64,000 nucleotides of DNA from an uncultured Alphaproteobacteria bacterium (GTDB lineage: Bacteria > Pseudomonadota > Alphaproteobacteria > Rhodobacterales > Rhodobacteraceae): assembly GCA_902533625.1 (NCBI GenBank), contig CACAMI010000007.1, forward strand, positions 1-64,000, read 5' to 3'. A program made the translations under genes and the position numbers. Positions 59,454-61,880 of the stretch are shown piece after piece. How positions within the stretch are numbered: the stretch's first letter is position 1; each line of letters begins with the position of its first letter. The notes under the pieces are model-generated. The model was not told the origin of the DNA. It ran no database searches and saw nothing but the letters and a program-made list of their open reading frames with translations.

Positions 59454-59529
59454 GGGCGATTAGCTCAGTTGGTAGAGCGCTTCGTTTACACCGAAGATGT
59501 CGGGAGTTCGAGTCTCTCATCGCCCACCA
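59454..59529 (+). tRNA. tRNA-Val (anticodon TAC)
   Basis: A full 76-base cloverleaf. The acceptor stem GGGCGAT pairs with ATCGCCC. The D-arm is AGCTCAGTTGGTAGAGC. The anticodon stem CTTCG/CGAAG encloses the loop TTTACAC, giving anticodon TAC for Val. The T-arm carries TTCGAGT. The 3' CCA is encoded. It lies 62 bases after lon. Downstream sequence has an imperfect copy of its 3' end at 61869. Confidence 0.96.
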
Positions 59530-59538
59530 GAATTGCAA

Positions 59539-59693
59539 TTTTGTTGACCGCCCGACAAACACTTCTCAATACTTATTTTACTGCGTTTAAAGGATCAGCT
59601 TAATTTTGTTGATTTTGTTGAGGGTATCAGTGGCCTACAACCTATCCCGCAAAATGCGGTGTTCTATACCGAAAAAATATTTGTTGATTTTGT
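59539..59693 (+). repeat. Cluster of TTTTGTTGA repeats and a short inverted repeat beside tRNA-Val
   Basis: TTTTGTTGA occurs at 59539-59547, 59604-59612 and 59613-59621, with ATTTGTTGA at 59679-59687. A 14-base unit TTTGTTGATTTTGT is exact at 59605-59618 and 59680-59693. Between them lies a perfect hairpin CCGCA-AAA-TGCGG (59647-59659), whose right part CGCAAAATGCGGT recurs at 60508-60520. Such short direct repeats beside a tRNA 3' end resemble arm-type recombinase sites or iterons. No gene is visible from 59530 to about 59725. Confidence 0.55.
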
Positions 59694-59724
59694 GTCGATT
59701 TAAGGCTGTTGATTCCCATCAAAC

Positions 59725-61677
59725 TTGCTCAACAGTATCTTAAATATTTTTATTGTATTTTGTAAGTTTTGTCTTAACCTTAACCTCATGTCGTCTAGTA
59801 AAATGCAATTCTATATTTGGCTAAAAAAAATACTAGCTACAGTGGGACTCTTCCTATTTTCGTTTCAAACTGCTGAGGCAGAATTTAGATTTGAGCGTGT
59901 GGAATATAAGATAGGCTATGTTCACAACGAATATACCAATTTGACGGCGACTTTCTATGGAGTAGAGACAGATATTACTTCTTCCCCAAAGCCCATGTTT
60001 ACAATGGGTTTCGATGCAAATATGGACAGAGGCACTTTTCATAGTCTCCGATTTGATGAAAACAGCTTTTCTATACCAGTTAAATTTAGTGATCATAGTC
60101 AACCTGGTAGGTTTTTTGTCTATCCTAAAACTGTAGCGGATCATTCCTTTAGACGGCTTTATAATTTTCTCGACGATGAGACGCAGTCATTAATTGAAGG
60201 CAGTTGTAGTCATTTCTTAAATGAAAAAGTGATAGAAAATCTGGTTTCCATAGGAACGTCTAACGACGATGTTAAGAAGTTTTTAGAGAAGCAAGCTCAT
60301 AAGTTTGACATCAAAGTTTTGGCTAAACAATGCCAAATGGTTGCCAAAAGAGTTTATGTTTTAGACCTTCAAAAGCACTTGGAAGTACTAGGCTATAATG
60401 TTGGAAAAATCGATGGTAAATGGGGACCAAAATCTCAAAAAGGATTAGATAAATATTTCAGTGATGTCGGATTGAGTCTGGATACAAAAATTTCAACAGC
60501 TTTATTACGCAAAATGCGGTCAGAGATTTCAGAAAATTTGCCAGAATGGCTTGTGACGGAAAGTAATGTGCAATATTTTAATTATAATGGAGAACGTTTG
60601 TGGTTACTAACCATCAAAGACAAGCTAACTAAGAGGCGATCTATAAATGTATTCAAAGCGTGGAATTCGCCCGGTAGCCGAAGTGCTTCAAACAACGACT
60701 ATGGCTTATATTGGGATATTTTACCAGAAGGTGAGGGATTGGAGCCAAGAGAGGTAATAAAATTGCACTGTATAAATTGGCAATTTAATTACACATATGA
60801 AGTTTATGACGATTATCCCGGTATCAAAACCTTTTTGTTGAATAAAAAATGGTATCATGAGGAGGAATACGGTGACACCATTACAGTAAAATTTTGGGAC
60901 CCTAATTTTCCAAAATTTATATCTGAGTTGGCCGACAAGCATCTGCAAGAAAGAAATGCTGACGGACTTTGCTTAGATTGGTGGAGAGATGAAGGCAATG
61001 TTCTTAAAAGTACGGGTTTAAGGGTAGCAGAGGTAAAAGAGGCAAGGATAAACATTGCAAAAGCTTTTCGGAAAAAGCTCGGTGCAAATGCAATTATTTT
61101 GGGTAACGTCGGGTGGGATCTAAACCCAGTGACAACAAATTACATCAATGGGGTATTTCTAGAATTATACAAAATTCCCGGACAGCAGAAATATACCACA
61201 AACGAAATAATGAAGATGGAAAGTTCACTGCTTTTTTATGATGAAAATTTGCGAGAGCCGCGGCTCATTGCGATGGCTCCATGGAGAGTTTCGATACTTG
61301 GGGATAATAAAAAAATAAATCCTAATTCGAAAGAAAACAGAAAATACGCAAAATTATTTACGGCCATGGCTATGGTAATACCTGATAATGGATATATTTT
61401 GTACTCAGATAATAATTGGGACAGGGTGGATGGGGACTATGGCCATCTTTATTATGAATTTTATTCCTTTGATATTGGAAAGCCTAAATCTGGTTATGTC
61501 AAATTGGGTTGGGGCGTGGGGTATAAGGAACATGAGCGTGGCTTTATAGCTTACAATATTAATGATGGGGTTAAATTAATAAAAAGAGCAAATGGACAGT
61601 CATTTGATATTCCAGGGAAAAGTGGACTATTCTGCAAGGATAAAAATTCTAAAACAGAATGTTTGCCCATTGATTAA
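59725..61677 (+). CDS. Secreted protein with peptidoglycan-binding domain and glycoside-hydrolase-like barrel (GHL15-type)
   Basis: Up to 650 residues from TTG 59725; ATG at 59788 or 59803 may be the real start because each leads directly into a signal peptide ending QTAEAE. About residues 218-250 form a PG_binding_1 domain (LQKHLEVLGYNVGKIDGKWGP). The C-terminal 350 residues look like the putative glycoside hydrolase family 15 (PF14885-like): a barrel strand NADGLCLDWW with an acidic residue, then AIILGNVG and INGVFLELYK. Predicted to act on envelope or capsule polysaccharide. It lies between tRNA-Val with its repeats and a copy of the tRNA 3' end, so it is likely island cargo. Confidence 0.65.
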   Translation: MLNSILNIFIVFCKFCLNLNLMSSSKMQFYIWLKKILATVGLFLFSFQTAEAEFRFERVEYKIGYVHNEYTNLTATFYGVETDITSSPKPMFTMGFDANMDRGTFHSLRFDENSFSIPVKFSDHSQPGRFFVYPKTVADHSFRRLYNFLDDETQSLIEGSCSHFLNEKVIENLVSIGTSNDDVKKFLEKQAHKFDIKVLAKQCQMVAKRVYVLDLQKHLEVLGYNVGKIDGKWGPKSQKGLDKYFSDVGLSLDTKISTALLRKMRSEISENLPEWLVTESNVQYFNYNGERLWLLTIKDKLTKRRSINVFKAWNSPGSRSASNNDYGLYWDILPEGEGLEPREVIKLHCINWQFNYTYEVYDDYPGIKTFLLNKKWYHEEEYGDTITVKFWDPNFPKFISELADKHLQERNADGLCLDWWRDEGNVLKSTGLRVAEVKEARINIAKAFRKKLGANAIILGNVGWDLNPVTTNYINGVFLELYKIPGQQKYTTNEIMKMESSLLFYDENLREPRLIAMAPWRVSILGDNKKINPNSKENRKYAKLFTAMAMVIPDNGYILYSDNNWDRVDGDYGHLYYEFYSFDIGKPKSGYVKLGWGVGYKEHERGFIAYNINDGVKLIKRANGQSFDIPGKSGLFCKDKNSKTECLPID

Positions 61678-61702
61678 TCCGTATTACACTTTGAAAAATT
61701 GT

Positions 61703-61828
61703 ATGAATTTAGATAAAAATATGTCGAAAGCATGGATTGATTTCACCCTACAAAAAAAGAGCTTTAAATCTGAGAAAAAGCCACATACCGCAAGCGATAC
61801 CGAAAAAAATAATGATGTTGAGAGCTAA
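61703..61828 (+). CDS. Possible 41-residue peptide
   Basis: A short ORF from ATG 61703 (MNLDKNMSKAWIDFTLQ) to TAA 61826-61828, very rich in Lys and polar residues. There is no clear ribosome-binding site. It lies 25 bases after the glycoside-hydrolase-like gene. It may be a small cargo gene or chance; I do not recognise it. Confidence 0.25.
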   Translation: MNLDKNMSKAWIDFTLQKKSFKSEKKPHTASDTEKNNDVES

Positions 61829-61868
61829 GTTATTGAAGTTCAAGTAGTTTGATGAGAGCTTAGTAGTC

Positions 61869-61880
61869 CATCGCCCCCCA
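61869..61880 (+). repeat. Imperfect copy of the tRNA-Val 3' end
   Basis: CATCGCCCCCCA matches the tRNA-Val 3' terminus CATCGCCCACCA (59518-59529) at 11 of 12 positions, in the same orientation, 2,351 bases downstream. Such G+C-rich matches are rare in this A+T-rich sequence. It is the expected place for the distal attachment site of an element inserted at the tRNA, but the match is short and not perfect. Confidence 0.45.

Follow-up and report, generated by a model that had tools for sequence, protein, structure and literature searches.

The 64,000-nucleotide stretch of DNA analyzed here (hereafter, the window) is the beginning of contig CACAMI010000007.1 (C7) of an uncultured alphaproteobacterium of the family Rhodobacteraceae. 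At positions 59518-61880 it very probably carries a phage-derived element of the cis-mobilizable type, i.e., a remnant of a temperate phage that is located at the 3′ end of a tRNA-Val gene and contains a single cargo gene, P0001. The features of the element, together with those of two related loci in the same genome (G000), are collected in Table 1.

Attachment sites of a temperate phage at tRNA-Val

A 25-mer from the repeat at the left end of the element matched two viral contigs of the IMG/VR database, L038 and L039, which are identical over 10,408 bp and were therefore counted as one phage. L039 contains, in one piece, the right end of the element, a single CATCGCCCACCA, the left end of the element and a gene for a tyrosine integrase of 352 amino acids. 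In local alignments, window positions 61719-61880 correspond to L039 2071-2232 and window positions 59518-59718 to L039 2221-2440, and the two alignments overlap exactly in the CATCGCCCACCA 12-mer. The aligned sequences show at this junction the joined attP site of the phage, with its arms meeting at one CATCGCCCACCA. Since L039 joins both ends at one 12-mer, the two ends in the window represent the attL and attR sites of this phage family. When the own genome was searched with the attachment region of L039 as a query, both ends of the element were retrieved from C7 (left, E 1.1e-63; right, E 1.4e-55), along with a left end on contig C31 (E 1.9e-44) and both a left and a right end on contig C30 (E 9.9e-42 and 1.2e-20).

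L039 encodes proteins similar to integrase, an excisionase-like protein, repressor, primase-polymerase, Holliday-junction resolvase and a virion structural protein; L038 has a similarity to the small terminase subunit. Its closest counterparts among named phages are distant: the integrase is 32% identical to that of Rhizobium phage RHph_N65, and the virion protein is 30% identical to that of Microcystis phage Mae-Yong1326-1. With the L039 integrase as a query, the phage relatives retrieved were just the same two contigs, and a literature search directed at systems of this type rather than at the organism yielded no paper describing the phage or the element. Contig L038 stops (at its position 14435) at the equivalent of L039 2070, one base before homology to the right arm of the window begins (L039 2071). 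This may be due to chance, to divergence between versions of the phage that split the assembly, or to an end of the phage DNA.

An earlier, sequence-only reading of this DNA had noted an 11/12 copy of the tRNA-Val 3′ end, in the same orientation, at 61869-61880. Our repeat search confirmed it: when up to one mismatch is allowed, this is the only second match to CATCGCCCACCA in the 64 kb window, and it lies on the same strand, with 0.07 such matches expected on average in shuffled sequence. In a stricter control, 20 tRNA tails from the own genome were compared with one another's downstream regions using a 3′-anchored score. The score of the Val copy, 9, was also attained by 7 of 379 swapped pairs of tRNA tail and region (a 380th pair, with a score of 20, was left out because its region contains the tRNA-Asp gene itself). 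Taken alone, the 11/12 repeat is therefore only marginally better than chance, and since it is weak in the swapped control, its significance rests on the comparison with the phage. The same reading had proposed a cargo segment at a classical tRNA site without a recombinase of its own, a proposal that the single 12-mer of the joined L039 site now supports. In its account of the 2.35 kb between the copies, the repeats, the glycoside-hydrolase-like gene (at sub-threshold scores) and the lack of an integrase hold, whereas the presumed 41-residue peptide proved to be the tail of a phage open reading frame (ORF).

Table 1. Features of the tRNA-Val element and of related loci in the same genome (window positions unless another locus is given)
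Feature	Position	Strand	Basis
tRNA-Val(TAC), target gene, intact after insertion	59454..59529	+	ARAGORN
attL core CATCGCCCACCA, last twelve bases of tRNA-Val	59518..59529	+	identical to the lone 12-mer at L039 2221-2232
Left attachment arm of the phage, containing five direct repeats of the TTGTTGA type	59530..59718	+	83% identical to L039, E 1.1e-63 including core
TTGTTGA-type (TTTTGTTGA) repeats	starts 59541, 59606, 59615, 59681, 59706	all +	
Integrase gene 3′-end remnant, about 28 nt	59719..59746	-	alignment with C31, where it forms the end of an integrase remnant of 53 codons
Cargo gene P0001, 629 aa, glycoside-hydrolase-like	59788..61677	+	ORF listing, Pfam, similarity searches
41-codon ORF	61703..61828	+	same C-terminus as L039 1899-2180
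Phage right attachment arm	61719..61868	+	89% identical to L039 2071-2232 including core, E 1.4e-55
attR core CATCGCCCCCCA, 11/12 match to CATCGCCCACCA	61869..61880	+	repeat search, phage alignment
Second element, related phage ends around an agmatine-deiminase-like gene	L005 317-1851 (G000 C30)		
Tandem pair of segments	L004 11109-13140 (G000 C31)		intact tRNA-Leu(CAA), MFS (major facilitator superfamily) gene, tRNA-Leu 3′ copy, TTTTGTTGA arm, integrase remnant

All five like-oriented TTTTGTTGA sites of the left arm are present in both the phage and the window, and four of the five in each of the C31 and C30 copies. Lambda-type integrases bind arm sites, and by analogy the TTTTGTTGA repeats are probably arm-binding sites of the phage integrase. 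The integrase gene itself is lost from the element except for about 28 nt, whose spacing is off by 2 nt relative to C31, so that the frame is not kept; judging from the ORF listing, there is no integrase-like ORF among those of at least 40 amino acids in 59530-61880. At the other end, the last 35 residues of the 41-codon ORF correspond to the C-terminus of a 93-residue phage ORF adjoining attR; the 41-codon ORF is a gene remnant and not an independent peptide.

The cargo gene

P0001 consists of an N-terminal domain common with a host protein encoded on contig C3, a PG_binding_1-like middle and a GHL15-like C-terminal half. Both Pfam similarities are below the curated cut-offs (20.1 bits against 27 for GHL15, PF14885, and 19.1 bits against 23 for PG_binding_1). 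By eye, its hydrophobic N-terminus resembles a signal peptide, and the product is probably secreted. Residues 31-203 are 45% identical to the host protein (1075 amino acids, L095 1516-4743), which we take to be DUF1800-like, and residues 33-208 are 27% identical to a 1102-amino-acid frame of G001.

No full-length relative of P0001 was found among 60 relatives or in 384 other genomes of the class, for which at most three candidates were scored per genome; the best match to the GHL15 half among the class candidates scored was 30% identical (E 2.5e-15, G160). The possibility that the gene is conserved core sequence, which the sequence-only reading had named as a refuting result, is thus not borne out by these genomes. 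P0001 had no match in named phages; its patterns had none in viral contigs, in a search that reaches close relatives only, and no relative was present among PDB sequences at E up to 1. The phage contigs carry no cargo gene adjoining either arm. A single-sequence structure prediction was useless (mean predicted local distance difference test score, pLDDT, of 33.9).

Related remnants in the same genome

Comparison of window positions 59380-62240 with the own genome revealed two more copies of the left end, C31:12745-13008 and C30:317-526, both 77% identical. The C30 copy is preceded by what appears by eye to be a degraded tRNA-Leu end; its left core is degraded, and so is the right end of the C30 element, where no second core is recognizable. 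The cargo of C30 is an open frame of 374 amino acids that matches PAD_porph (E 8.4e-72) and, below their cut-offs, two agmatine deiminase models. Both this gene and P0001 read away from the left arm. On C31, the left arm adjoins a 3′ fragment of tRNA-Leu, the last 20 bases of which are exact, and a 53-codon C-terminus of the integrase lies beside the arm on the opposite strand. CCAAATGGTAGACC is present at both ends of the C31 MFS segment; a repeat of this segment had no match in viral contigs.

We used C31, which keeps 162 nt of the integrase gene including the stop codon, as a reference for the inner breakpoints. Left-end homology continues 30 nt into the integrase gene in the window element (28 nt in window coordinates) and 11 nt in the C30 element. 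Projected on the phage, left-end homology of the window and C30 elements stops at 2440 and 2433 if scoring is strict, and lenient scoring extends it to 2469 and 2470; homology at the right starts at 2071 and 2038, respectively, in the same small ORF. The breakpoints of the two elements thus lie within about 20 nt of each other on the left and within 33 nt on the right. These matching inner boundaries are the strongest hint of something beyond random decay, yet they come from two elements that possibly share one ancestor.

The Val site and the arms in other genomes

Twenty stretches below lon were fetched from relatives; 14 contain tRNA-Val(TAC), 5 contain only tRNA-Val(CAC) and 1 is without tRNA-Val. 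None of the 14 relatives with tRNA-Val(TAC) has a copy of the tRNA tail above background (best score 8) or the exact CATCGCCCACCA 12-mer at the tRNA end. With no downstream copy above background, their Val sites look free of the element. The other refuting result named by the sequence-only reading, a boundary in relatives without the tRNA-like copy, did not occur either. Its suggestion that relatives might carry alternative cargo ending at CATCGCCC was not borne out: such cargo was looked for and none was found. In nine of the 14 relatives, a tRNA-Asp(GTC) gene follows at a distance of 4 (in G044), 189, 253, 502, 663, 863, 1165, 2000 or 3487 bp; in the window, the Val-Asp interval is 5224 bp, of which the element accounts for 2351 bp. 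Beyond attR, positions 61881-64753 (to L006 9754) comprise 2.87 kb with a 403-amino-acid gene without a Pfam match and a gene for a 2OG-Fe(II) (2-oxoglutarate- and iron-dependent) oxygenase. This stretch is separate from the element and is perhaps an older insertion.

Searches for the arms, with at most two candidates scored per genome, gave matches in 5 of 385 genomes of the class (the own genome and four with matches of 23-37 bp, taken as chance) and in 2 of 390 genomes of the order (the own genome and one with a 27-bp match, likewise taken as chance). The copy on C30 of the own genome was not listed by these searches; since they missed a known copy, the absence of arms elsewhere is not exhaustive. 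There was no match to an arm 25-mer in genome contigs. An arm 18-mer gave 7 matches there, with 7 to 8 expected from a rough calculation, and their similarity to the arm is confined to 18-22 bp at the matching site. In viral contigs, no arms were found beyond those of the one phage.

A search of the own genome for the integrase retrieved the C31 remnant (60% identity over 47 residues) and one match of 26% identity (E 0.011) that by its look may be taken for a host recombinase of the XerC/D type. A close intact integrase was not found in the own assembly, and no excised form of the element was seen.

Origin of the element and alternative explanations

We propose that recombination by the phage integrase would have taken place between attP, at its CATCGCCCACCA 12-mer, and the tRNA-Val 3′ end. 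After integration, the left arm of attP would have come to lie behind the restored tRNA gene, while the right arm would have become part of attR. The interior, from the last codons of the integrase gene to the middle of the small ORF by attR, would then have been lost or replaced; the breakpoints are seen directly, and the history is our reconstruction. One bacterial-type gene, probably with a secreted product, would thereby have been left between the phage ends. Lacking an integrase gene of its own, and with no close intact integrase found in the incomplete assembly, the element cannot move by itself; its excision in trans by a related phage is possible, and the host probably retains it for its cargo gene.

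Several points weigh against this scheme. L038 and L039 amount to one independent observation of the phage, and the attR core has one mismatch. No empty Val site was seen within the genus: G001, the sole other genome of the same genus among the relatives, is 60% complete and without a match to the locus, and its best match to the L039 region has an E value of 0.37. The own assembly is about 75% complete and may therefore lack an intact integrase.

One explanation that we hold to be about evenly balanced between right and wrong is that of a plain dead prophage: the gene was a lysogenic-conversion gene of the phage or entered the dead prophage later, the rest of the phage was deleted, the breakpoints in common with C30 are due to descent or chance, and the remnant is immobile. 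It is commonplace for a decaying prophage to retain one useful gene, and on C30 the right end is degraded while the cargo frame remains open over 374 amino acids. What fits less well is the gene itself, given that it lacks matches in named phages and (close relatives only) in viral contigs, that no cargo gene stands beside either arm on the phage contigs and that its N-terminal domain is common with a host protein. The agreement of the window and C30 breaks, to about 20 nt on the left and 33 nt on the right, also counts against this explanation.

It is this agreement that speaks for a second explanation, which shares the phage origin and which we regard as unlikely: modular one-gene cassettes that are built from the two attachment arms of a phage, lack an integrase, exchange their cargo between fixed inner boundaries and are moved in trans by the integrase and excisionase of a phage. 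The C30 element has related phage ends, a different gene and near-identical inner breakpoints, and by our estimate, which is not a calculation, such agreement would be improbable for random breaks across the 14.4 kb of known phage sequence; the common reading direction of both cargo genes, away from the left arm, fits as well. However, there are only two examples with both ends, one of them with a degraded right end and no recognizable second core, and the two could stem from one deletion event. Moreover, the class and order searches, with at most two candidates scored per genome, and those of genome and viral contigs found no copy outside the own genome other than the one phage, and no excised form has come to light. 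That there is a whole family of gene cassettes operated by a phage in place of an integron, with cargo swapped at fixed inner boundaries just past the arms and with insertion and removal at tRNA ends by the phage integrase and excisionase, seems to us more doubtful still. A coincidental 11/12 copy beside an ordinary chromosomal gene has practically no chance of being correct: the seven swapped controls that attain its score make it plausible for the 12-mer alone, but both ends match the contiguous attachment region of one phage (E 1.1e-63 and 1.4e-55) and meet at the 12-mer, which rules it out.

Other tRNA and guaA segments

We scanned up to 9 kb downstream of 20 tRNAs found with Rfam, for four of which the sequence covered was under 4 kb, for copies of the tRNA tails. 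Strong copies were found at 4 of the 19 tRNAs other than tRNA-Val: Leu(CAA) (20/20), Asn (18/20), Ser (three copies) and Leu (14/15; located at L121). The genes between tRNA and copy are an MFS transporter gene at Leu(CAA), genes for an alpha/beta hydrolase and a small protein at Asn, genes for an alpha/beta hydrolase, a transporter and oxidoreductases at Ser, and genes for small proteins at Leu. No integrase was recognized among the ORFs listed for these segments, most but not all of which were scanned against Pfam. The tRNA-Asn locus (L108 134-2065, G000 C18) is a 1.84 kb segment with two genes between the tRNA and the 18/20 copy of its end, and an exact direct repeat of 21 nt, AAATTATTTTCATTACCTACG, lies near both of its ends. 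At tRNA-Ser (L120 118-6271, G000 C23), three downstream copies of GTCTCTCCGCCA accompany metabolic genes, with no integrase seen; the three copies probably mark tandem segments.

A parallel drawn in the sequence-only reading with a segment at guaA was upheld. The 3′ end of guaA (minus strand), GAACTATTGAGTGGGA, has a 16/16 copy at 49494-49509 (segment at window 49494-50911), and between the gene and its copy there is one gene of 418 amino acids with an HNH nuclease domain, restriction-enzyme-like. The gene called guaA in that reading was recognized here by its motif and look. At window 50888-52451, it is represented by two overlapping ORFs (318 and 210 amino acids), i.e., it contains a frameshift, which is either a genuine lesion or an error introduced by sequencing or assembly.

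Comparison with known systems

Islands at tRNA genes that lack an integrase are often inferred from short repeats. In this case, a joined attP represents the parent phage family, so that the ends and the cargo, as well as the loss of the integrase, can be closely distinguished. The near-same inner boundaries around a different gene on C30 also provide a concrete case of how phage decay could become cassettes moved in trans.

The closest known counterparts are cis-mobilizable elements (CIMEs), which, in the portion of PMC5704250 that deals with them, have lost integration and transfer genes, keep attL and attR and are found at tRNA 3′ ends. The window element likewise keeps attL and attR (the latter with an 11/12 core) and has no integration or transfer genes inside. 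CIMEs as presented there decay from integrative and conjugative elements (ICEs) or integrative and mobilizable elements (IMEs), whereas the window element descends from a temperate phage and has one gene inside. Since its parent is a phage and not an ICE or IME, we call it CIME-like and phage-derived rather than a strict CIME in the sense of that paper. The ssrA islands of Dehalococcoides are also cargo bounded by 3′-end repeats, and 15 of them, without an integration module, might be cis-mobilizable elements, according to the account in PMC3146451. They differ in having one target (transfer-messenger RNA, tmRNA), serine-recombinase elements and tandem arrays, with no phage attP in that account.

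Additive flexible genomic islands, known from aquatic bacteria, are marked by repeated copies of the 3′ end of a tRNA, as set out in the relevant parts of PMC10872708 and PMC4119200: flexible genomic island 2 (fGI-2) of Methylophilaceae ranges from 330 bp to 42 kb with 1 to 63 genes, and in Alteromonas, cassettes are added at a tRNA. Here, too, copies of tRNA 3′ ends delimit cargo, at tRNA-Val by way of a phage and at 4 of the 19 other tRNAs. The islands described in those parts are single islands at one tRNA, whereas in this genome small segments are present beside several tRNAs and beside guaA, and one of them has an identified phage parent. Tycheposons and phage satellites are site-specific cargo elements as well, the satellites being dependent on a phage, in the descriptions given in PMC10872708, PMC10803314 and PMC11389934. 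Tycheposons and phage-inducible chromosomal minimalist islands (PICMIs) have, as described there, a recombinase gene of their own, and PICMIs additionally encode AlpA and a primase, whereas the window element encodes no recombinase. Defective prophages come up as a source of hitchhiking elements in the discussion of PMC11389934, and cryptic, or "grounded", prophages are characterized in the corresponding part of PMC6379469 as defective and possibly keeping genes useful to the host. Compared with grounded prophages, the window element has no whole phage gene, and remnants with related ends and other cargo are present in the same genome. What sets it apart from these systems is the combination of a phage parent, a single gene and repeated inner boundaries.

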